DNA from: Arbacia lixula
Lineage: Eukaryota > Echinodermata > Echinoidea > Arbacioida > Arbaciidae
Length of the DNA stretch: 64,000 nt
Assembly: GCA_963669155.1 (NCBI GenBank)
Contig: OZ022586.1
Location: 387,501-451,500, forward strand
Reading direction: 5' to 3'
Shown here: in pieces, positions 10,256 through 51,262 of the stretch
Layout of the letters: each line of letters opens with the position of its first letter
Numbering within the stretch: position 1 is the first letter of the stretch
Notes under the pieces: model-generated
Told to the model about the DNA's origin: nothing
The model's database searches: none
The model's input: the letters and a program-made list of their open reading frames with translations, nothing else
Program-made: the position numbers and the translations under genes

Positions 10256-11323
10256 TCATGACCACTCAAACCTGCGGCCAATCAGCTCAAAAAACTTCTC
10301 GTTGTAGGGCCTAAAAAATGTCTGCAGTTCATGCAGTACATGTGGGTTCACATCTGGATGCGACTGCCCTTTCTTATCTCCCAGGCATTTTAACTTCTTA
10401 GATTTCAGACAATAAAACCCCTTCGTCTTGTTGTAGACAAAGTTCTTCTGCGTGAAAAAGCTCGGCAGACCCAGGAATGACTCAACGAGTTTCATCTCCG
10501 GCAGCGGATTCACGATCAGCTTTGAGCCGTCCACGAACATGAGTTGGGAAGCAGGGAAGTGCTGCAACCACACTTTGGCGTGATTGACATAGATGCTGGT
10601 CCGCACGGCCTGGTAGCTCGTGTCTATCTTCCCATTATTCATCACCTTCTCTTCAAACTTGGGGAACTTGCGGTATTTGTTTGGCGTGTGGCTGAGGATC
10701 TGCGTGTAGTCCGACACAGTACGGACCGTGGGGTCCCTCACGATTGCCAATAGCTTGATAGAGCTATTCATGCCATAGATTCGCTCCGGCGCCTCAGGCG
10801 TAATAAAATACCCCGGCGTTTTCTCCATGGTGATCTGATCTGCATAGGAGAAAGGCATCTGCTCCTTGTACCACTCCATCCCGTTGTCGTAGTTATCGTC
10901 AAAGAAATGGATCTCGGGATTAGCAGCGGCAATGCCCGGGTGCATGCGCAACATCTCGATCAGTGCCCGCGTCCCACACTTGCGCACGCCCATAACAATA
11001 GCCTGGGGCAGGCGCTGCTCAAAGGTTCCGCGGTGGTTGACAGCCAGCTGCATGATCTCGTCATTGATACGATCCACGCTGACCTGAAAGGCGTTGCCCC
11101 CAAGGTCGCTGTCCACCCCTTCCAGGCCCGAGCCTCGCATGGAGCACAGCAGCCGCCGCATCTTCTGCCGGTCGGAGATCTGGTTGGTGGACAGGAAGAG
11201 GAAGAGGAAGATGACCACCACGGAGGCGATGATGATGCGACGTCGAGCCATGAGTCGGTAGAAGAGCACCTTCATCGTGCTGACCCCACGCCCTGCTTGC
11301 ATCGCCTCACAGGGGACAGACAC
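10256..11323 (-). CDS. HS3ST5: Heparan sulfate glucosamine 3-O-sulfotransferase, HS3ST5-like (single coding exon)
   Basis: Transfers sulfate from PAPS to the 3-OH of glucosamine in heparan sulfate, in the Golgi. The exon begins at 11323, just after a strong acceptor on the minus strand (CTTCCTTTTTTCTGCCAG). The first in-frame ATG is at 11302 (MQAGRGVS), giving 348 aa, close to my recollection of vertebrate HS3ST5 and longer than HS3ST1. The protein is type II: a basic RRR, then one hydrophobic segment at residues 23-37. Family signatures: PAPS 5'-phosphosulfate loop GVRKCGT (105-111), catalytic Glu in PEIHFFD (E130), 3'-phosphate site IVRDP...SDYTQ (188-201), YQAVRTSIY, and the paired cysteines of FYCLKSKKLKCLG (298, 306). 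The pattern MNSSIKLL.IVR.PT and the FLGLP motif favour HS3ST5 over HS3ST1. One oddity: Cys sits where most family members have the first Gly of RKGGT. Upstream reading to 11350 lies in the intron. The 5' non-coding exons were not located. Confidence 0.92.
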   Translation of the reverse strand: MSVPCEAMQAGRGVSTMKVLFYRLMARRRIIIASVVVIFLFLFLSTNQISDRQKMRRLLCSMRGSGLEGVDSDLGGNAFQVSVDRINDEIMQLAVNHRGTFEQRLPQAIVMGVRKCGTRALIEMLRMHPGIAAANPEIHFFDDNYDNGMEWYKEQMPFSYADQITMEKTPGYFITPEAPERIYGMNSSIKLLAIVRDPTVRTVSDYTQILSHTPNKYRKFPKFEEKVMNNGKIDTSYQAVRTSIYVNHAKVWLQHFPASQLMFVDGSKLIVNPLPEMKLVESFLGLPSFFTQKNFVYNKTKGFYCLKSKKLKCLGDKKGQSHPDVNPHVLHELQTFFRPYNEKFFELIGRRFEWS

Positions 11324-11645
11324 CTGGCAGAAAAAAGGAAGATCATTCAAAATTCACAAAAACAGAACTTTGTAAAAAATGTGATAAAACATGTCAAATT
11401 CTGATCATATATTTCCCAAGTTCACGATCATGATCATATTGCTTTATTACAAATAGTCCCATAGTGACTTCAAGTGTCACTGAACACAGATCTGTTAAGC
11501 TAGATATGCTTGGTTGGCTGGAACTTATAGGCCTACTCATACTACACACACTGCAGTTAAAGCCCCATCACACTTATTCAGAATCAACAGGAATCAAGCA
11601 GAACCAGCCGGAAGGAAAATTTTTCAAAACATTTTGAAAACACTG
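11324..11645. other. Intron/5' flank of the sulfotransferase gene
   Basis: Begins with the minus-strand acceptor polypyrimidine tract (about 11326-11340). No upstream exon is recognisable in it. Confidence 0.5.
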
Positions 11646-16545: not shown

Positions 16546-16599
16546 ATGGCAATTATCAAGCGTACTTGTTGCGTGGGATTCGATATTTAGCGCGCGCAT

Positions 16600-17253
16600 G
16601 TGCAGGGGCGCGCACAATTTAAATGCCAGTGCAGCGCCACAGCGCCACAGCGTTGTGTGCGCTGCGGGGGCAACCACTCATTTAATGACTGTCCCAACAA
16701 AGAAAATCCAACCTGCTGCAGATGCAACCAAAATCATTCTGCTGCGTATAAAGGTTGCTCTGGGTATAAGGACGCCATAAAAATCCAGCAGATTAAACTA
16801 AACGAAAAAATCTCTTACGCAGATGCGACAAAAAACTTTCATGCCGCCAAGCGGGAAATGTCATTGAAAGTACCCACAGAGGTAAGTATCCCTCAAGCTC
16901 AACCAACAATCGCCCCGCCCCCACTTCCTCAACGCCCTTCCACTTCAAAACGTTCGGTACCACACAACAACGGTGCTACCAATGCTAGTACCCAACCACT
17001 CCCTTCTACACAACCCAAACAGATGACAATAGGAACCCAAAACAATGAAGCTGGTACTAGCAATGAAACCTATCAAGTTCCCATCTCTATTAACCCCATC
17101 GACTTTTTATCTTTCATTGTACATGTTATTAATAACATGAATCCAAATTCCTCTAACTCTAACAAAATCAATCTTGTCATCGATGCTGCCCAAAAATACT
17201 TAAATATACCGGCAGTCTCTCCCGAAGTAGTTCAAACTCGACTTACAGCATGA
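16600..17253 (+). CDS. Retrotransposon ORF1 (Gag-like), N-terminally truncated
   Basis: The frame is open from 16591 after a TAG at 16588; 16600 is GTG, so there is no proper start and the N-terminal part is lost. Two zinc knuckles remain: CVRCGGNHSFNDC and CCRCNQNHSAAYKGC, with the remains of an earlier one (FKCQCS), as in Jockey/I-type ORF1 proteins that bind nucleic acid. GYKDAIKIQQIK and SYADATKN follow, a common sequel in this family. The rest is Pro/Ser/Thr/Asn-rich linker and a C-terminal hydrophobic helix-like stretch (IDFLSFIVHVIN). It ends at TGA 17251-17253, overlapping the ATG of ORF2 as ATGA. Confidence 0.85.
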   Translation: MQGRAQFKCQCSATAPQRCVRCGGNHSFNDCPNKENPTCCRCNQNHSAAYKGCSGYKDAIKIQQIKLNEKISYADATKNFHAAKREMSLKVPTEVSIPQAQPTIAPPPLPQRPSTSKRSVPHNNGATNASTQPLPSTQPKQMTIGTQNNEAGTSNETYQVPISINPIDFLSFIVHVINNMNPNSSNSNKINLVIDAAQKYLNIPAVSPEVVQTRLTA

Positions 17254-20200
17254 ATAGGGGGCTTTTGTTTACTCGCTCCCTCTGGTTTAAACCCAGACCG
17301 TTTTTAGTCTTTTCGTTTATCATGATTCATATCTTACAGTGGAATGCTCAGAGCATGAACGCACATGGAATGGAATTCTATTATTCGATGTTACGGAGCA
17401 GTGAAACACCATATATTATATGTCTCCAAGAAACATGGTTTCATGATTTCAATACTCTTGATTTTCCGAACTACACTTTATTAACAAAAAACAGAGCAGA
17501 TAATCACGGAGGGCTAGCTTTTTATATTCATAACTCAATACCTTATGATATCATAGATACTCCTCCAGGAAAAGAATTCCAAAAAGTCAATATATATCTC
17601 GATCATGTCTTCTCAGTTGTAAATTATTATAACCCCTGCAAAAAAATAGAAGCTGAAGATTTGCAGCTCTTGCTTCATAACTTGAAAGATAATTATGTTA
17701 TATGTGGTGACTTCAACTCGCATAATGTTATATGGGGAAGTGACCATACAGATAGCAATGGCAAAACTATTGAGGAGTTTATTACCGCAAATGATATTGT
17801 AATAGTTAACGATGGCTCCCCTACCAGATTAGACCCACACTCTGGAAAATATTCAAACATTGATCTTACTCTGGCTTCGAAAGCTATATCGAGCAAATGT
17901 CAGTGGAGCGTTACAAACGACTGTTTTGGTAGCGACCACCTTCTTTTAAATTGTCATATAGGAGTACCTCTTCCACCAAGCGCTAACTGCATCAATCCGA
18001 AGAGCAATATTTCTTTTAAGAATGCTGATTGGAAAAAGTATAAAAAGTCAATAACTAAATACTTTGGTGCAATTTGCCATACGACATACTCAAACTTAAA
18101 CATACAAGGTAAATATGATTTTATAGTAGAGGCAATACTGAAATCTGCATCAGAAATTCTTCGTAAAACGAAGGAAGGTAAGTTCAAAGATCCGGTTCCC
18201 TGGTGGAATGAATCCTGTAAAAAGGCTATACAAGAAAGAAAAACTGCTAGGAATAAGCTAAACAGACGATCTTTTTCCTCGGATGATGTTTTATCCTATA
18301 CAGACAAAAAACGAATTGCACAGAAAATTATTCGCAACGCTGAACAGGAATATTGGATTTCCAAAAGCAAAAACATGAATCGGATGACAGATCTGGGTGA
18401 AGTATGGAACAAAGTTAAACGCATTAGAAATAGCAAAAAGAAAATACCAGATCTAATCGTAAATGAAAAACCTATTACTACACCAAAAGATAAGTCCGAA
18501 ATCTTCTTGGACATCTTCAGTAATAACATTTCAAACTTAAATAAAGAAACATCTCAAAAGAATGAAGACGATTTCTTTCAGAAAGTAGATATACATTTAG
18601 ATGATGAATCAAATGAAGATCTAAATAAACCTTTCACACTATGGGAATTAACGGAAGCTCTGAGAGCAATGAAAGATACAGCACCTGGTCAGGATGGAAT
18701 CCGATCATGCCTGATCACTAACCTACCAGAACCTTTACATAAGTACCTCTTAAATTTATTCAATGAAATATGGGAGAATTCTATTTTGCCATGCCAATGG
18801 ACTCATGCCATTTTAATTCCAGTTCTAAAACAAGGTAAAAACCCAGTTAATCCAAATTCCTACCGTCCCATATCTCTTACCCCAGTACTTTGTAAACTAA
18901 TGGAAAGATTGGTTAAAAATCGTCTGTCCTGGTTTATTGAACGATATGATTTGATTACGCCCTTACAGGCGGGTTTTAGAAAGGAGAGAAGTACAACAGA
19001 CCATGTTATTAGACTAGAAACTGACATCCATAAAGCTTTAGCAAACAAAGAATATACAGTTGCAGTGTTTCTAGATCTAGAAAAAGCGTATGACATGTTG
19101 TGGCGTCGGGGCCTCGTTATCAAATTATATGAAAAAGGCATTACTGGAAATATTCTCAAATGGATCGATTCCTTTTTAAAAATCAGAACTTGTCAAACAA
19201 GATTAGAGGGACAACTCTCATCTCACAAAGTACTAGAATGTGGAATTCCACAAGGCAGCGTACTTAGCCCTTTACTCTTTAATTTTATGACAAATGATTT
19301 TTCTAATGTCTCAAATACAGTAAACATTTCCATTTATGCTGATGATTTATGTATCTGGTTCTCCAACCGAAATATCAAGTTTATTCAGCACAAACTACAA
19401 TTAGCCCTATCACAAATAGAATCAACATGCAAGTGCTGGGGCCTACGTGTTTCGTCTACTAAGTCTTGTGCAATCGTCTTTGGGAAAAAACGATTTCAAG
19501 ATATTGAATTGAAAATAAATAACGAAAATATAACTCAGAAAAAAGAACACAAATTTCTAGGTATATGGTTTGACGCCAAATTAACATGGAATACTCATGT
19601 CAATAAGCTAGTTGCAAAATGCAAGAAACGCATCAATTTGTTACGTTGTATTTCAGGAACTTCCTGGGGGAAAAATGCAAATATACTGTTCATGATATAC
19701 AAAGGCCTTATACGCTCAGTAATAGACTATGGGTGTGAAGCGTATGATGCGGCATCCTCCTCTGTTTTAAAAAAAATAAACTCAATCCAGCATGAATCAT
19801 TGTGCATTGTTACTGGCGCTACAAAAACTACCTCGCTAGCCGCCCTCCAAGTGGAATGTGGAGAACCCCCACTAGAACTTAGGAGAAATCTTTTTGTAGA
19901 CAAATATAAATTCTATCTTGAAACTCGAAAAGAGAACCACCCAACAAAAGAGGTTTTGAAAAGTTGCTGGCAATATGAATATGACAAATGGCCCGAAGGT
20001 AAAGGACCAATACGCAACAGAGCATGTAAATTACAGGTCTCTCTCTTGGAAAAGCAATCAGACTATATTCACAATATACCTTTCTGGACTTACGCTAGAC
20101 CGCAAATATCATTAGATATCCACACACAAGTATCCAAACAAAATAGCTTACCAGCTGAATTACAGTTGGTTACAAACGAAGTCGTCTCAACAAAATGGCA

Positions 20201-21041
20201 AAATTATGTAAAAATATTCACGGATGGGTCTAAGCTAGCAGATGGCATGACAGGAGTTGCTTATTATATACCATATTTTAAAATAGAAAGACTATACAGA
20301 ATTTCCCCAGTAGGGATCATGAGGGCAGAATTAATTGCTATTCTTCTCGCTCTGGGATGGATTGAAGAGGCCCTCCCCCTGTCTGTTGTCATCTTAAGTG
20401 ATTCGATTTCCGCTATCGAGGCAATACATAATTTGAAAGAATCCTGTATCATAAGGGAAATATCAGAAAAAATAACATATTTGAATACTTATGGTATCAC
20501 GGTTCATTTTGAATGGGTTCCTGCTCATTGTGGTATAGCCGGAAATGAGCATGTAGACTATTTGGCTAAAAAAGCTGCCCTAAAAGAAAATATTGACATA
20601 GCAGTCCCCAGATGCAGAAAAGAACTAGTTAATCACATGATTTATTTTTACAAACAAATTTGGCAAATGCAGTGGGATTCCAATACAACGGGTAGATTCT
20701 TTTACTCTCTTCAACCTATTATACAACCAAAATCTCAGATCAATCTCAGTAACAGAAGAGATGAGAAAATCATACACAGATTAAGACTGGGAAAGTGTAA
20801 CTTAAATTTTTATAAATTTCGTCTTAACAGACATGAAAGCGGGCTTTGCGATTACTGTAAAGTGCACGAAACAATTGAACATTTTTTACTGCATTGTAAG
20901 GAATACAAGGAACAAAGAAAACAACTCTTTACGTGTATCCGGGAAAAAAACATAACCATAAAACATCTGTTAGGTACTAAACAGAACCATGCTCTAGTTA
21001 TACGTTACATCAAAACAACAGATAAATACAAGTATATTTGA
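17250..21041 (+). CDS. Retrotransposon ORF2: endonuclease, reverse transcriptase, RNase H
   Basis: 1263 codons without a stop. The APE-type endonuclease occupies about residues 25-240 (ILQWNAQSM, LQETW, GDFNSHN with D154, and a GSDHLLL end). Reverse transcriptase follows, about 465-770 (PGQDGI, SYRPISLTPVLCKLMERLV, QAGFRKERST, FLDLEKAYD, GIPQGSVLSP, and YADD with Y696). RNase H spans about 988-1110 with its D-E-D-H-D set visible: D992 in TDGS, E1027 in MRAELIA, D1051 in SDS, H in PAHCG and D1103 in HVDYLA. A C-terminal knuckle is C1200, C1203, H1211, C1216. All catalytic residues look intact. Start: ATG 17250 overlaps the ORF1 stop, suggesting reinitiation; ATG 17322 directly before the endonuclease is an alternative. 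Confidence 0.95.
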   Translation: MNRGLLFTRSLWFKPRPFLVFSFIMIHILQWNAQSMNAHGMEFYYSMLRSSETPYIICLQETWFHDFNTLDFPNYTLLTKNRADNHGGLAFYIHNSIPYDIIDTPPGKEFQKVNIYLDHVFSVVNYYNPCKKIEAEDLQLLLHNLKDNYVICGDFNSHNVIWGSDHTDSNGKTIEEFITANDIVIVNDGSPTRLDPHSGKYSNIDLTLASKAISSKCQWSVTNDCFGSDHLLLNCHIGVPLPPSANCINPKSNISFKNADWKKYKKSITKYFGAICHTTYSNLNIQGKYDFIVEAILKSASEILRKTKEGKFKDPVPWWNESCKKAIQERKTARNKLNRRSFSSDDVLSYTDKKRIAQKIIRNAEQEYWISKSKNMNRMTDLGEVWNKVKRIRNSKKKIPDLIVNEKPITTPKDKSEIFLDIFSNNISNLNKETSQKNEDDFFQKVDIHLDDESNEDLNKPFTLWELTEALRAMKDTAPGQDGIRSCLITNLPEPLHKYLLNLFNEIWENSILPCQWTHAILIPVLKQGKNPVNPNSYRPISLTPVLCKLMERLVKNRLSWFIERYDLITPLQAGFRKERSTTDHVIRLETDIHKALANKEYTVAVFLDLEKAYDMLWRRGLVIKLYEKGITGNILKWIDSFLKIRTCQTRLEGQLSSHKVLECGIPQGSVLSPLLFNFMTNDFSNVSNTVNISIYADDLCIWFSNRNIKFIQHKLQLALSQIESTCKCWGLRVSSTKSCAIVFGKKRFQDIELKINNENITQKKEHKFLGIWFDAKLTWNTHVNKLVAKCKKRINLLRCISGTSWGKNANILFMIYKGLIRSVIDYGCEAYDAASSSVLKKINSIQHESLCIVTGATKTTSLAALQVECGEPPLELRRNLFVDKYKFYLETRKENHPTKEVLKSCWQYEYDKWPEGKGPIRNRACKLQVSLLEKQSDYIHNIPFWTYARPQISLDIHTQVSKQNSLPAELQLVTNEVVSTKWQNYVKIFTDGSKLADGMTGVAYYIPYFKIERLYRISPVGIMRAELIAILLALGWIEEALPLSVVILSDSISAIEAIHNLKESCIIREISEKITYLNTYGITVHFEWVPAHCGIAGNEHVDYLAKKAALKENIDIAVPRCRKELVNHMIYFYKQIWQMQWDSNTTGRFFYSLQPIIQPKSQINLSNRRDEKIIHRLRLGKCNLNFYKFRLNRHESGLCDYCKVHETIEHFLLHCKEYKEQRKQLFTCIREKNITIKHLLGTKQNHALVIRYIKTTDKYKYI

Positions 21042-46696: not shown

Positions 46697-47612
46697 TTAA
46701 TTTGGGGGTTCTCTTTCGAGTGAGAGCTTAAATTGTTCGAATTCTAATTCAGTGAATTCTTGAAGGAGTAGATTCCGAATCGCTTGATTTCTCTGTCTCG
46801 GTTCGTATTTCGCAACTGAGAGTTGAAAGTAGAGGAGGCTCTCATGTAAATGATATTCACTAGTCCATGCATGTTTCCACGGAGCCTCGTCATGCGCATG
46901 CGCCATTTCGTGCAGTTCAGAAAAATGTCGAGAGCGCTGGCGCTTCATTTCGTCGTCATCATCGTCGACGTTGACGTCATTGTCACCCATGAAGTTTTCG
47001 AGGAGTTTTGCGCGTAACGCGCTGTCAATTGATTTGATGTCATCGCTCTTGCACTGACTACGCGCACCCGATGCGTTCACGTAGCGTTCTCTTTCCCGTT
47101 CTTCTGCGACAAGCTGTGCGTACTCGATAATTAGACGGCAGATGTGGTGTTTTCTTTCTGCACTCATCGTACCGGTGCGCGTTGATTTTCCTGACTCATT
47201 CGTGACGTCACGATGTTGTTTTGATCCTAGCGTGTGTAGTTTTTGTCCAGCACTCTTAAAAAGTTCAAGTACTTTAAAAGTGGTTTTGCGGGTCTCTGTC
47301 ATCTTACTTTCAACACATTCCTTTTCATCGTTTCCATCTAATTGTTTTTCTTTCACGATCCCATCCACGATTTCAATATCTGACTCACTCGATGTAGTAT
47401 TGGTATCTGGTTGGTTGTGGTCGTGATCGTAGAGCTTGTGCGCTATCCTTGTTCCGCTGAGGTCAAAAGTCGTGTAGAAGTCAATGATGCGCATGAGCAC
47501 TGACCCCAGGAATGGGAGGCAAGGAGGGGATTTCATAGCCTCATCTAATTCCGGGTCGTTGCTAAGGGATCGATCTTCGTCGTTTGCGAGTTCCAGGAGC
47601 TGTTGCCACGTT
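46697..47612 (-). CDS. GARIN-RasGEF gene, coding exon 2 (C-terminal RasGEF part)
   Basis: Starts at 47612 after the acceptor CATTTCACATAG (minus strand) with one base completing the Glu codon; then TWQQLLELAND. Stop TAA at 46699-46697. The final helices of the RasGEF fold (YFQLSVAKYEPR, LSLEREPP) are at the end. Upstream in-frame sequence to 47653 (MLCSCGSVHF) is intronic. Possible minus-strand poly(A) signal ATTAAA near 46370. Confidence 0.85.
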
Positions 47613-48690
47613 CTATGTGAAATGAAATGTACAGAGCCACATGAGCAGAGCAATACAAAGATTGACTTTCTTGCCTATAACATTTCATTGATGCTCAAGA
47701 AAGAATGAAATGCGTGTTACCATGCTGACAATTATTAGCTTTTTAGGAAATTGGTCCCGTTGCATAAAACATACCAGTAATGGTAACTCTGTTATCAACG
47801 GAAATTACCATGGCAACATCACTAGATAGCCAATAAAATTCAAGGTTTCCATAGAAGCTGCCATTGGTAGCAACCATCAATGATATGTTTTATGCAATAG
47901 GGCTATGGTTTGTGAACACATGACTTGAGAACTGAATGATACAACTGTTGGTGCTATGCATACTTGGATATTACTTGGATACTAGGAGAAATCTTATTAT
48001 TTTGTCAGGCATGATGATGCTTATTGTACAATGGAAGCACTTTCTCCGTCCCATTAGATTGTAAAGTATTACATGTGTTCGTACAAACAAGACTACTACA
48101 CAACATTTCTAATGCACTCATATACCAAATGTATGTTTTACAGTTTGAAAGAAAACAAATGTTTCAAATCAATGAATCATCATCAACCATCATGTATTCA
48201 AATAAGCAAATCCAGGATTTTACATAAATACAATCCAATATTCGGAGAATGATAGAGTACGTCTATGCTCTACTACGATGTTCGGTGCGAAAATAAGCTC
48301 ATGTCATGATATGAACTGTGCTGTTATGTTGGAAAGGATATATTTTTGAATGAGAAATGATAAGCCTGGGAGATATGAACGTCAACCCAAATACACGAAT
48401 TATGCCCATTGTAGCCTGGTTCGGTTAATAGCTCACGTTATTATCACATTCATTGGAGGGAAAAATTTGAATTTTCATTTTGAAAATTAGAATTCCCGTT
48501 TTGCTCTTATAATAGGGTTATAGCAATGAGAGTTCATTTCATCATAGCTTGGCGAGGAAGGTGATATAAAATCGTATGAATTAATAATTGAAAGAGAAAC
48601 GAGAACACGAAAAATACTATACATTACGATTGAGAGATAGGCACGGAAAGATGTGTATATAAAGTAAGAGAGATAGCGAAAGGTACATAC

Positions 48691-48737
<47 letters not shown>

Positions 48738-48944
48738 CATGAGCATAGACAGAGGGAGGTGGATATGGGGAAGCCGATAGGAAATTATAGAGAGGGGAGA
48801 CAAAGACAGACAGAGATAAAGGGTGAGAGACAGAGACAAAGACAGAATGAGATAGAAAGAGAGAGGGGGGGGGGGAGGGATATACATTGATATGGGATGC
48901 AGAGGGGGAAGGGGATGTGAAAAAATACAAAGACAGAATGAGAT

Positions 48945-48997
<53 letters not shown>

Positions 48998-51262
48998 GAG
49001 AGAGATTTCTTTTACTTTTTCCTTAAGATGCAGAAACATGTGGAAACCTTCAACTTACTCAAAGTGAGAATCATGCTGTTCTTCGACAATCTTCCACGTA
49101 TCTTGCAATCTGTAAACAGCGGGCGACTGCAGACCCGCTACGATCGCTCGAAGAGAGTGAAAGTTTTTATTCGCCCGCAAACTCTCCGCAACGTTCAGGA
49201 AATGAACAACAGTCGAAGCACGCTGTGATGACGTCACAGGAAGCAGAACCTCTGCCGTGACCCGTCGCGCAATGCGCTTGAAGAACTGAACAGCGCGCAC
49301 GACGTTGGGTGCGCGGTAGACCCGATCTTCCTTCAGCCACATGCAGCCGACTAGCTCCGCCTCGTGGATGCGCAGACAAAGTTCCGCGTCGATCGCCGTC
49401 AGCTCATTGGCCAGTTCGCTGGATTCGACTTGACTCAAAGTTTCATAACGTCTTTCGAAAGGCGATTCATCCAGAACGGAAAGCTTTTGAATTGTAGGCC
49501 TACCTACGAAGAAAATGCTCTTCCATTTACCCTTACTCGCTCCTGGTCTGAGCTGCTGGGAACTATTCTTTGTACTGCCTGTTACGAGACTGTCAAACTT
49601 ATTTTGCCCTTTTTTGTTCAAACTGTTTGGTAGTTGTTCTTTATTCTTCGTATGTATTTCGTATTTCATTCTCGGATCCAGCTCCTTATTTCGAATCTTC
49701 TCAATTTCATGGTGAAGGTCAAGCTGCTGCCTTGTAAGAAACATCACGTGTCCATTGACCACGTGCGGACTCCGACTGTCGTCCTCGTTCTCGAGGTCAA
49801 GGTATACCAGGGAGAGGCGATGGGTGACGTCATCAGCGTTCGGCAAGTCCTCAAGGAAACTCGCCTCACCTTCCAGAATGTCCGGAACAGATGCCGTGTG
49901 ATGTAGCTGCGCCTTGTCGATGTTAAAGACGTCCTCGTCCGATGATTTTGGACAACCGGGGTCGTCCTCCAGTAGCACGTCGAGTCGGGTCATGGACGCC
50001 ATTGGCCGAGTCCTTCCGGTGTGGCCATGTGCATGTGCTTCGAAGTTGACCTTGCCGAAGAGGTCACCGAGACAGAACAAGAGCCCAACCCTCGTGTCCC
50101 TGGCGTGGCGGTTGGTCCAGCTCTCCGCGTTGCTGGACACGATGCTCCCGACGCTCTGAATGTCCTCGAGGCTTGACATGGAATCCTCCCCGCTGACCAC
50201 GTCCAGAACAGAGAGCATCATGCGACCCTTCGGACCGTGTCGGCCTGGGTGACCTTTGACCTTACTTCGTGAGCTACGGACGTGAGAAGATGAGTGAGTC
50301 AAAGAGCCATGTGACTCGCCCCAGACGCTGGGTGATTGCTCGGTCAGTTTGCGGGAAGAGGAGTGGTCTATCATGAAGAGAGGATTACTTCCGGTGTTCT
50401 GAGGGGTGCGGCCTGACTTTATGCTATGCCGATGGCCGTGCATGTGGCCGGCGTCATCATCGTCGTCGTCATCGTCTACGTTTAAATCCTCGTTGTGGTG
50501 ATCAATCATGTGTTCGGCAAAGTGATGGACCCATCTGTGCGCGGTCGACTGCTTCCTCCGCGTTGGACGTCCGAGGGCTGGTCTGTTTGCCGCCCCCACC
50601 GGCATATGTTGCTTATTTCTTGTTGATGTCGTGGGAATACCACTATCAACACTTCTTACCCCTGTATCTGCAGCGGTTTGTAGATTCGCGTTACTACCCT
50701 GCCCCTCGATTGATCCAAGATTGCCCTTGATCAATGAGCCGCTGCCCATCTTCCCCCGCATGAAGGCCTCTCTGTGCCGCCTCCTCTCCTCCTTCTTCGC
50801 GCCCCTTCTTCTCTGTTCCAGCTCCTGGATCCACCACACCCACTCGTGCCACTTGTCCTCACGATGCCTCGGGTCCGACAGCTCCAGGTACCACGTGCTC
50901 CCGCTGCACAGCCGAACCCGCATCACCCGCTCCCCGATCTCATCCGAATGCGTCCGAACTGAGAGCCGAACGTTACCGAGCGGGAAGAGGTAGATCAACT
51001 CGAATAACTCGATGTCCGAGTTGCATTCGCGGGCTGGGCGCTGGATCGCCTGATTGGCCGGCGACACGGAAGGCAGTTTGTCTTCGGCTATAAGGAGCAC
51101 TGATGACGTCAGACCTACCTGTACCATACGGATCTTGCTTCCGTGTCTCACATTCAGCACAAACGCGCTCTCGAGGAGAACGACTTCATCCGTCAGAGAA
51201 AAATATTCTTCTGTCCACAGCAAACGCTGGATTCGTGAGTTGCACGCCAGAGCTGGATCCAT
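46697..51262 (-). CDS. GARIN-like (FAM71) plus RasGEF domain protein, two coding exons
   Basis: Predicted guanine nucleotide exchange factor for a Ras-like GTPase. Exons: 51262-49059 and 47612-46697, joined by a consensus donor (GA|GTAAGT) and an ACATAG acceptor in matching phase; 1039 aa. Residues 8-150 match the PH-like GARIN/FAM71 domain (IQRLL..EY, MVQVGLTSSVLLIAEDKLPS, LFPLGNVRLSV, RVRLCSGSTWYLELSDP), which in vertebrate GARINs binds Rab2. Residues 155-610 are a low-complexity linker with His-rich and poly-Asp runs. RasGEF begins at 613 (SSELANELTAIDAELC, TSSQRASTVVHFLNVAESLR, NFHSLRAIVAGLQSPAVYRL, TWKIV), crosses the splice junction, continues with SPPCLPFLGSVL (764-774) and ends in FEQFKLSLEREPP (1026-1038). 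About 200 acidic/polar residues are inserted between these last parts. I know of no standard family with this pairing. Start is ATG 51262; the open frame upstream uses GTG. Confidence 0.85.
47753..47904. mobile_element. MITE-like element, family B copy 2
   Basis: GTCCCGTTGCATAAAACATA at the left and TATGTTTTATGCAATAGGGC at the right; interior matches 3986-4147 (ATGGCAACATCACT, AGGTTTCCATAGAAG). Confidence 0.8.
48690..49010 (+). repeat. GA array in the GARIN-RasGEF intron
   Basis: Two GA blocks (48690-48735 and 48950-48995) around a G run (48865-48876), with a duplicated ACAAAGACAGAATGAGATAG at 48835 and 48929. Pyrimidine-rich on the sense (minus) strand. Confidence 0.9.
49059..51262 (-). CDS. 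GARIN-RasGEF gene, coding exon 1
   Basis: 2204 bases, phase 2. Starts MDPALACNSRIQRLL and ends at the donor GA|GTAAGT (minus strand, 49060-49053). Codes for the GARIN-like domain, the low-complexity linker and the first 123 residues of RasGEF. Such a long exon without stop, with higher GC than its surroundings and clear domain similarity at both ends, is secure. The His/Asp cluster (NVDDDDDDDDAGHMHGHRH) lies at about residues 270-290. Confidence 0.92.

Follow-up and report, generated by a model that had tools for sequence, protein, structure and literature searches.

Does a single gene of the sea urchin Arbacia lixula join a GARIN/FAM71-type domain to a RasGEF catalytic domain, and what could such a protein do? 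The question is raised by a locus on the minus strand of contig OZ022586.1, within a stretch of 64,000 nucleotides that was analysed as a whole (here called the window). The initial annotation, made from the letters of this DNA, described a two-exon gene (51262..49059 and 47612..46697) with a product of 1039 aa, an N-terminal GARIN domain of PH-like fold and a C-terminal RasGEF domain. GARIN proteins are described with an N-terminal RAB2-binding domain, both for FAM71F1 (PMC8602946, in excerpt) and for GARIN1B and GARIN3 (PMC11236154, in excerpt), and the FAM71 family has been presented as restricted to vertebrates (PMC6639074, in excerpt). On balance, we hold it somewhat probable from the sequence that the locus is one gene for a RalGPS-type RasGEF without a detectable REM domain, in which an N-terminal GARIN/FAM71-type targeting module would be recruited by Rab2 and the exchange activity directed at Ral.

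Gene structure and splice junction

Exon 1 (49059..51262, minus strand) codes for residues 1-734 and holds two of the three bases of codon 735, and exon 2 (46697..47612, minus strand) runs from the end of that codon to residue 1039 and the stop codon. The start ATG at 51262 lies in a good context (aaaATGG), with an in-frame stop immediately upstream. The intervening intron (47613..49058, minus strand) is of the GT-AG type (GTAAGT...CACATAG) and in phase 2, and it interrupts the RasGEF domain at residue 735. The two-exon structure, its coordinates, the 49059/47612 junction and the length of the product were all confirmed from the sequence. Long (GA/CT)n repeats occur inside the 1446-bp intron. 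In a tblastn search of the 64-kb window the product matched at just two places, with residues 1-735 and with residues 736-1039, a tRNA scan of the window found none, and neither AATAAA nor ATTAAA is present within the 97 bases inspected 3' of the stop codon.

Joining the exons raised the Pfam score for RasGEF from 101.1 to 118.7 bits and lowered the E-value of the best PDB match, RalGPS1 (3qxl), from 2e-16 to 4.1e-22. The 49059/47612 splice is supported because the joined exons score higher against this structure. Exon 2 alone showed no RasGEF family in Pfam (one unrelated family, E 0.24) and no RasGEF match in the PDB search. It is very improbable that the locus consists of two adjacent genes or that the splice model is wrong, even though the exonic bases at the donor (TGA) depart from the consensus and, among the 14 AG sites inspected as acceptors, 47693 has a better pyrimidine tract (13/15) than the proposed 47612 (10/15). 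Used with the same donor, acceptor 47693 leads to an in-frame stop after six codons, and within the 400 bases inspected no donor, the proposed one included, agrees with the consensus at five or more of seven positions. Both the Pfam and the PDB score rise on joining, and the RasGEF domain begins in exon 1, which contains the GARIN-type domain, a long linker and Pfam positions 1-116 of 181 of the RasGEF profile, and continues in exon 2. Since one uninterrupted open reading frame holds the GARIN-type domain together with the beginning of the RasGEF domain, the domain fusion is independent of the splice, and separate genes for the two domains were rejected for the same reason.

The linker (49448..50806, minus strand; residues about 153-605) places the catalytic domain about 470 residues from the GARIN-type domain. 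It is rich in S, R, G, D, and H, with eight consecutive aspartates at 263-270, and no Pfam family passes the cut-off in it (an unrelated one is listed at E 0.11).

The RasGEF domain and its nearest relatives

A C-terminal RasGEF domain, as initially annotated, is clearly present: in the joined protein PF00617 matches residues 616-778 with 118.7 bits (E 3.4e-34) against a gathering cut-off of 23.1, and the match spans positions 1-160 of the 181 of the profile. Ranked among PDB chains, which represent the families with a solved structure, RalGPS1 (3qxl) is the nearest relative with 82.1 bits (E 4.1e-22), followed by a runner-up with 58.2 bits; weaker matches include RasGRF1 (2ije, 7.4e-15), SOS2 (6.7e-13), RGL2 (4jgw, 6.7e-10), and RapGEF4 (1.3e-9). 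The SOS, RasGRF, RasGRP, RapGEF, and RalGDS/RGL proteins resemble the gene product in their RasGEF domain, as weaker matches than RalGPS1; to our knowledge they have other accessory domains, and none of them a GARIN-type domain. In the alignment, Q712 is common to the gene product and RalGPS1, while SOS2 and RasGRF1 have N at this position. Together with the rank of RalGPS1 among PDB chains, the shared Q712 suggests that the substrate leans to Ral.

RalGPS proteins are not known to carry a REM domain, and Pfam found none in the joined protein either. Pfam also listed no PH domain at E up to 1, either for the joined protein or for exon 2. This is a point of difference from RalGPS2, which is described as a Cdc25-like domain with a PIP2-binding PH domain at the C-terminus (PMC8699646, in excerpt), whereas the candidate targeting domain of the urchin protein is N-terminal and of the GARIN type. 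A second difference from RalGPS is the long C-terminal part that follows the hairpin region in exon 2 and has no match; residues beyond about 797 found nothing when searched alone. The C-terminal helices of the catalytic part and its long insertion are therefore treated as putative.

The catalytic residues bear on an alternative in which the RasGEF domain is weak or dead and serves as a Rab2-bound scaffold. Q659 occupies a site that matters for exchange in SOS1, and there the three relatives compared carry R (SOS2 and RalGPS1) or K (RasGRF1) instead. Divergence also marks the C-terminal third, with its long matchless stretch, and activity independent of GEF function has been described for RGL-1 of the worm (PMC6534338, in excerpt). 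However, R681 and R718 are kept and align with R of RalGPS1, RasGRF1, and SOS2, and the PPCLPFLG segment is retained at residues 764-771, in exon 2, followed by a hairpin region that aligns to RalGPS1. A scaffold of this kind is unlikely in our estimation; it overlaps with the other readings considered here, and the probabilities given to them are not meant to sum to one.

The N-terminal domain

The GARIN/FAM71-type domain (50807..51262, minus strand) comprises residues 1-152, and within it the match to PF12480, the Rab2B-binding domain, covers residues 87-145 (51004-50828). All scores stay below the gathering score of 22: residues 1-171 gave 14.0 bits (E 0.06, match at residues 87-145), residues 1-152 gave 14.2 bits, and residues 82-152 gave 16.8 bits (E 0.0078). 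PF12480 was the sole family listed for each of these three pieces, and none of seven shuffled or reversed controls matched it. Because the family had been named before searching, the E-value can be read for a single family, as 0.06/24,736 or about 2e-6. The GARIN domain as initially annotated, along residues 8-150, is thus recovered in part, for residues 87-145 and under the cut-off.

It is quite unlikely that the N-terminal match is a chance or generic similarity and the gene a plain RalGPS-like RasGEF with an unclassified N-terminus. PF12480 remained under 22 throughout and was absent from the list when the whole 1039-aa protein was scanned at E up to 1, and unrelated families appeared at similar values in the same searches (0.075 for residues 1-81 and 0.11 in one of the seven controls). 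Against chance stand the value of about 2e-6 for a family named in advance and, as a lead, a comparison with two provisional GARIN-type sequences (PF12480 at 7.5e-26 and 6.7e-31). Residues 1-160 scored 65 and 97 with these sequences and exceeded all 2000 shuffles made for each (maxima 60 and 52), whereas six further blocks from elsewhere in the protein scored 22-33. Upstream of the Pfam region, residues 1-85 were equalled by none of 2000 shuffles for one of these sequences and by 308 of 2000 for the other. The domain is probably homologous to GARIN, and we describe it as GARIN-like, short of formal family membership.

A single-sequence structure model of residues 1-171 places seven strands before a long helix, presumably the order of a PH-like domain, with a mean pLDDT of 39. 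At this low confidence, too poor for a fold search, the model agrees with the PH-like fold of the initial annotation in the order of strands and helix and does not establish it. The same residues had no PDB match at E up to 10, and three pieces compared with NCBIfam, a bacterial and archaeal library, gave no family. For the fusion as a whole, the RasGEF half is clear and the exons complete one domain, and the GARIN half is probable.

A further explanation, which we consider possible but rather doubtful, is that the N-terminus is of the GARIN type by descent, does not bind Rab2, and targets the RasGEF domain through lipids or another small GTPase. The sub-threshold PF12480 scores point to a divergent sequence, and a PH-like domain could bind PIP2 in the way reported for the PH domain of RalGPS2 (PMC8699646, in excerpt). 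Binding also varies within the family, since GARIN3 is reported to bind RAB2A/B in the CA as well as the CN form and GARIN1B in the CA form only (PMC11236154, in excerpt). On the other hand, the Pfam match falls on the very segment named for Rab2B binding, residues 87-145.

A possible link from Rab2 to Ral

For the favoured reading, a Rab2-recruited exchange factor directed at Ral, we infer Rab2 binding, exchange activity, Ral as the substrate and the site of action. The GARIN domain would bind GTP-Rab2 on membranes of the Golgi itself or on secretory or acrosomal membranes that derive from it, and concentrate the RasGEF domain there, which would load GTP onto a Ral-type GTPase. Ral-GTP could then engage the exocyst and render Rab2-marked vesicles competent for tethering and exocytosis; RalA is described as working via Sec5 and the exocyst (PMC8699646, in excerpt). 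As targeting module, the N-terminal GARIN-type domain would stand in for the PH domain that RalGPS carries at its C-terminus.

The gene product resembles GARIN/FAM71 proteins (GARI, GARI-L) in its N-terminal Rab2B-binding segment of the PF12480 type, here sub-threshold. Other vertebrate GARINs are not known to have a RasGEF domain. In carrying this domain the gene product differs from FAM71F1, for which 'no other functional domains' are reported (PMC8602946). One proposal for how GARINs act downstream of Rab2 comes from the same paper, which suggests that FAM71F1 restrains Rab2 as a negative regulator; this is a counterpoint to a Rab2-recruited effector that acts on another target.

Relatives were sought in several places. 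Scans of viral contigs gave seven pattern matches for the N-terminal domain and 38 for the RasGEF part of exon 1, and a scan of prokaryotic genome contigs gave 21 matches; none was a relative. No GARIN-RasGEF fusion appeared in open-access titles or abstract openings among the matches listed, which for several sets of terms were a small share of all matching papers (in one case 15 of 6,927). In PMC12302650, which had seemed relevant, 'Garin' is the name of an author. The fly gene CG34393, considered as a possible relative, was found in two papers only in gene lists and was dropped.

More tentatively, and with a likelihood that we put on the low side, the gene may represent an ancient and still nameless family of animal proteins in which the GARIN domain, by binding Rab2, sets a Ral exchange factor to work and couples Rab2 directly to Ral in a cascade on vesicles of Golgi origin. 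Under this reading the RasGEF half would have been lost in the descent of the vertebrate GARINs, of which some take part in forming the acrosome, and the description of FAM71 as vertebrate-only would be wrong. The fusion gene could supply the vertebrate GARIN family with an outside relative. A naturally occurring fusion with an exchange factor is also a 'Rosetta stone' clue, suggesting that Rab2-bound GARIN domains work beside Ral-type signalling, a link that is testable in both vertebrate and invertebrate sperm.

Gene model and RasGEF domain

As read from the sequence, the gene lies on the minus strand and consists of two exons, 51262..49059 and 47612..46697, separated by a phase 2 intron of 1446 bp and together encoding a product of 1039 aa. 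An open reading frame from 51283 to 49055 contains the ATG at 51262 (context aaaATGG) and a GTAAGT donor at its end. Re-derivation of the coordinates agreed with the two exons, 49059/47612 junction and protein length of the initial annotation, and a tblastn search of the window with the product matched these two exon stretches only. A different splice model, for example one using another acceptor, would find support in the exon-side bases of the exon 1 donor, which are off consensus, and in an upstream AG at 47693 with a better pyrimidine tract than the proposed acceptor; however, joining this AG to the same donor leads to a stop after six codons. The intron also holds an imperfect inverted repeat resembling a small MITE (47760-47897), whose 25-nt arms are 88 percent complementary and lie 88 nt from each other.

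The RasGEF domain claimed for this protein was readily recovered by Pfam, where PF00617 (the CDC25 domain) matches residues 616-778 of the joined protein over profile positions 1-160 of 181 with 118.7 bits, far over the cut-off of 23.1. Exon 1 from residue 321 onward scores 101.1 bits, and exon 2 alone gives no RasGEF match in Pfam, just one unrelated family (E 0.24). Among PDB sequences, RalGPS1 (3qxl) is matched at 2e-16 by the exon-1 part and at 4.1e-22 by the joined part, while exon 2 alone gives no RasGEF, only two artificial scaffolds (E 0.19 and 0.4). We regard this rise upon joining the exons as the best evidence available for the predicted splice. Among the 28 distinct PDB sequences matched by the joined part at E <=0.01, RalGPS1 ranks first (82.1 bits), followed by RasGRF1 (58.2), SOS2 (up to 51.7), SOS1 (up to 49), yeast-type Cdc25 (41.9), RGL2 (41.8) and RapGEF4 (up to 40.9), with RasGRP2 (36.4), RasGRP1 (27.1) and RasGRP4 (22.2) lowest. 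Neither a REM nor a PH domain is listed by Pfam in the protein.

The displayed PDB alignments, which comprise RalGPS1, RasGRF1 and three chains of SOS2, place both R681 and R718 opposite R in all three proteins; Q712 is shared with RalGPS1 and replaced by N in SOS2 and RasGRF1. Q659 (49286-49288, minus strand) occupies a position that is R in both RalGPS1 and SOS2 and K in RasGRF1, which would count against exchange activity and may indicate altered activity or specificity; in SOS1 this site is important for exchange. After the catalytic hairpin region, residues from about 797 to 1039 (46700-47428, minus strand) form a long, partly acidic stretch with no match in Pfam or PDB sequences, apparently an insertion in the end of the CDC25 domain or a divergence of that end. 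The protein terminates in KLSLEREPPN, which presumably resembles the end of the RalGPS CDC25 domain and serves as a lead only.

A GARIN-like N-terminal region

The initial annotation had assigned a GARIN (FAM71) domain to residues 8-150. For residues 1-171, PF12480 (GARIL_Rab2_bd, presumably the former DUF3699; 71 positions, cut-off 22 bits) is the sole family listed by Pfam, with 14.0 bits (E 0.06) and a match at 87-145; the Pfam match covers this segment and not 8-150, and stays below the cut-off. Trimmed pieces, picked after this result was known, again list PF12480 alone, with 14.2 bits (E 0.051) for residues 1-152 and 16.8 bits (E 0.0078) for residues 82-152. In the whole 1039-residue protein PF12480 is not listed at E <=1, nor does it appear in any of seven controls (six shuffles, one reversal). 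One control matched a different family (E 0.11) and residues 1-81 an unrelated one (E 0.075), so an E near 0.1 means little by itself. Since the family had been named ahead of any search, a single-family test is fair, giving 0.06/24736, or about 2e-6.

Two GARIN-type sequences, which Pfam assigns to PF12480 (7.5e-26 and 6.7e-31), were used for local alignment; they serve as leads, as they were written down once the protein had been read. Residues 1-160 scored 65 and 97 (maxima of 2000 shuffles each, 60 and 52). Five 160-residue blocks and one 79-residue block from elsewhere in the protein scored 22-33. Residues 80-152 alone scored 62 and 72, reached by 0/2000 shuffles in either case. Upstream of the Pfam match, residues 1-85 scored 49 with one sequence (0/2000 shuffles) and 29 with the other, a value reached by 308 of 2000 shuffles and amounting to nothing. 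A single-sequence structure model, made without an alignment (pLDDT 39), places strands at 27-30, 33-40, 43-50, 86-90, 96-103, 109-120 and 123-129 and a helix at 138-169, an order that fits a PH-like plan and is no proof of it. Together, the profile matches and sequence alignments make kinship of the N-terminal region with GARIN very probable; because the gathering score is not reached, the domain is termed GARIN-like here and the protein is not counted among the members of the family.

A candidate link between Rab2 and Ral

RalGPS2 is reported to pair a Cdc25-like domain and a PH domain with affinity for PIP2, and RalA to act via Sec5 and the exocyst (PMC8699646). Whereas RalGPS2 carries that PH domain, the present protein has none listed by Pfam and a putative Rab2 address instead. 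The simplest model would be an enzyme of the RalGPS kind in which a Rab2 address takes the place of the lipid address: Rab2-GTP would recruit the protein, the RasGEF half would load Ral, and Ral would then engage the exocyst. FAM71F1 has its RAB2-binding domain at the N-terminus, with residues 28-207 proposed (PMC8602946). GARIN1B interacts with RAB2A/B solely in the CA form, and GARIN3 with the CA as well as the CN form (PMC11236154). Another kind of exchange factor, ARFGEF3, is bound by Rab2-GTP, its recruitment being the authors' inference (PMC6639074). FAM71F1 itself is proposed to restrain Rab2 (PMC8602946), which counts against the Rab2-recruitment model. In the open-access literature, no GARIN-RasGEF fusion is described in titles or abstract beginnings among the matches listed, which for three sets of terms were 20 of 60, 12 of 3,379 and 15 of 6,927 papers.

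Other features of the window

A LINE-type element and a heparan sulfate 3-O-sulfotransferase-like frame make it very probable that the window is DNA of an animal. The LINE-type retrotransposon occupies 16591-21038 on the plus strand, and its single 1292-aa open frame (17163-21038) encodes an endonuclease, a reverse transcriptase and an RNase H. The preceding, overlapping frame has no Pfam family at E <=0.01 and appears CCHC-like by eye. On the minus strand, 10259-11353 holds a heparan sulfate 3-O-sulfotransferase-like open reading frame, with HS3ST5 as its closest solved relative (3.9e-93).
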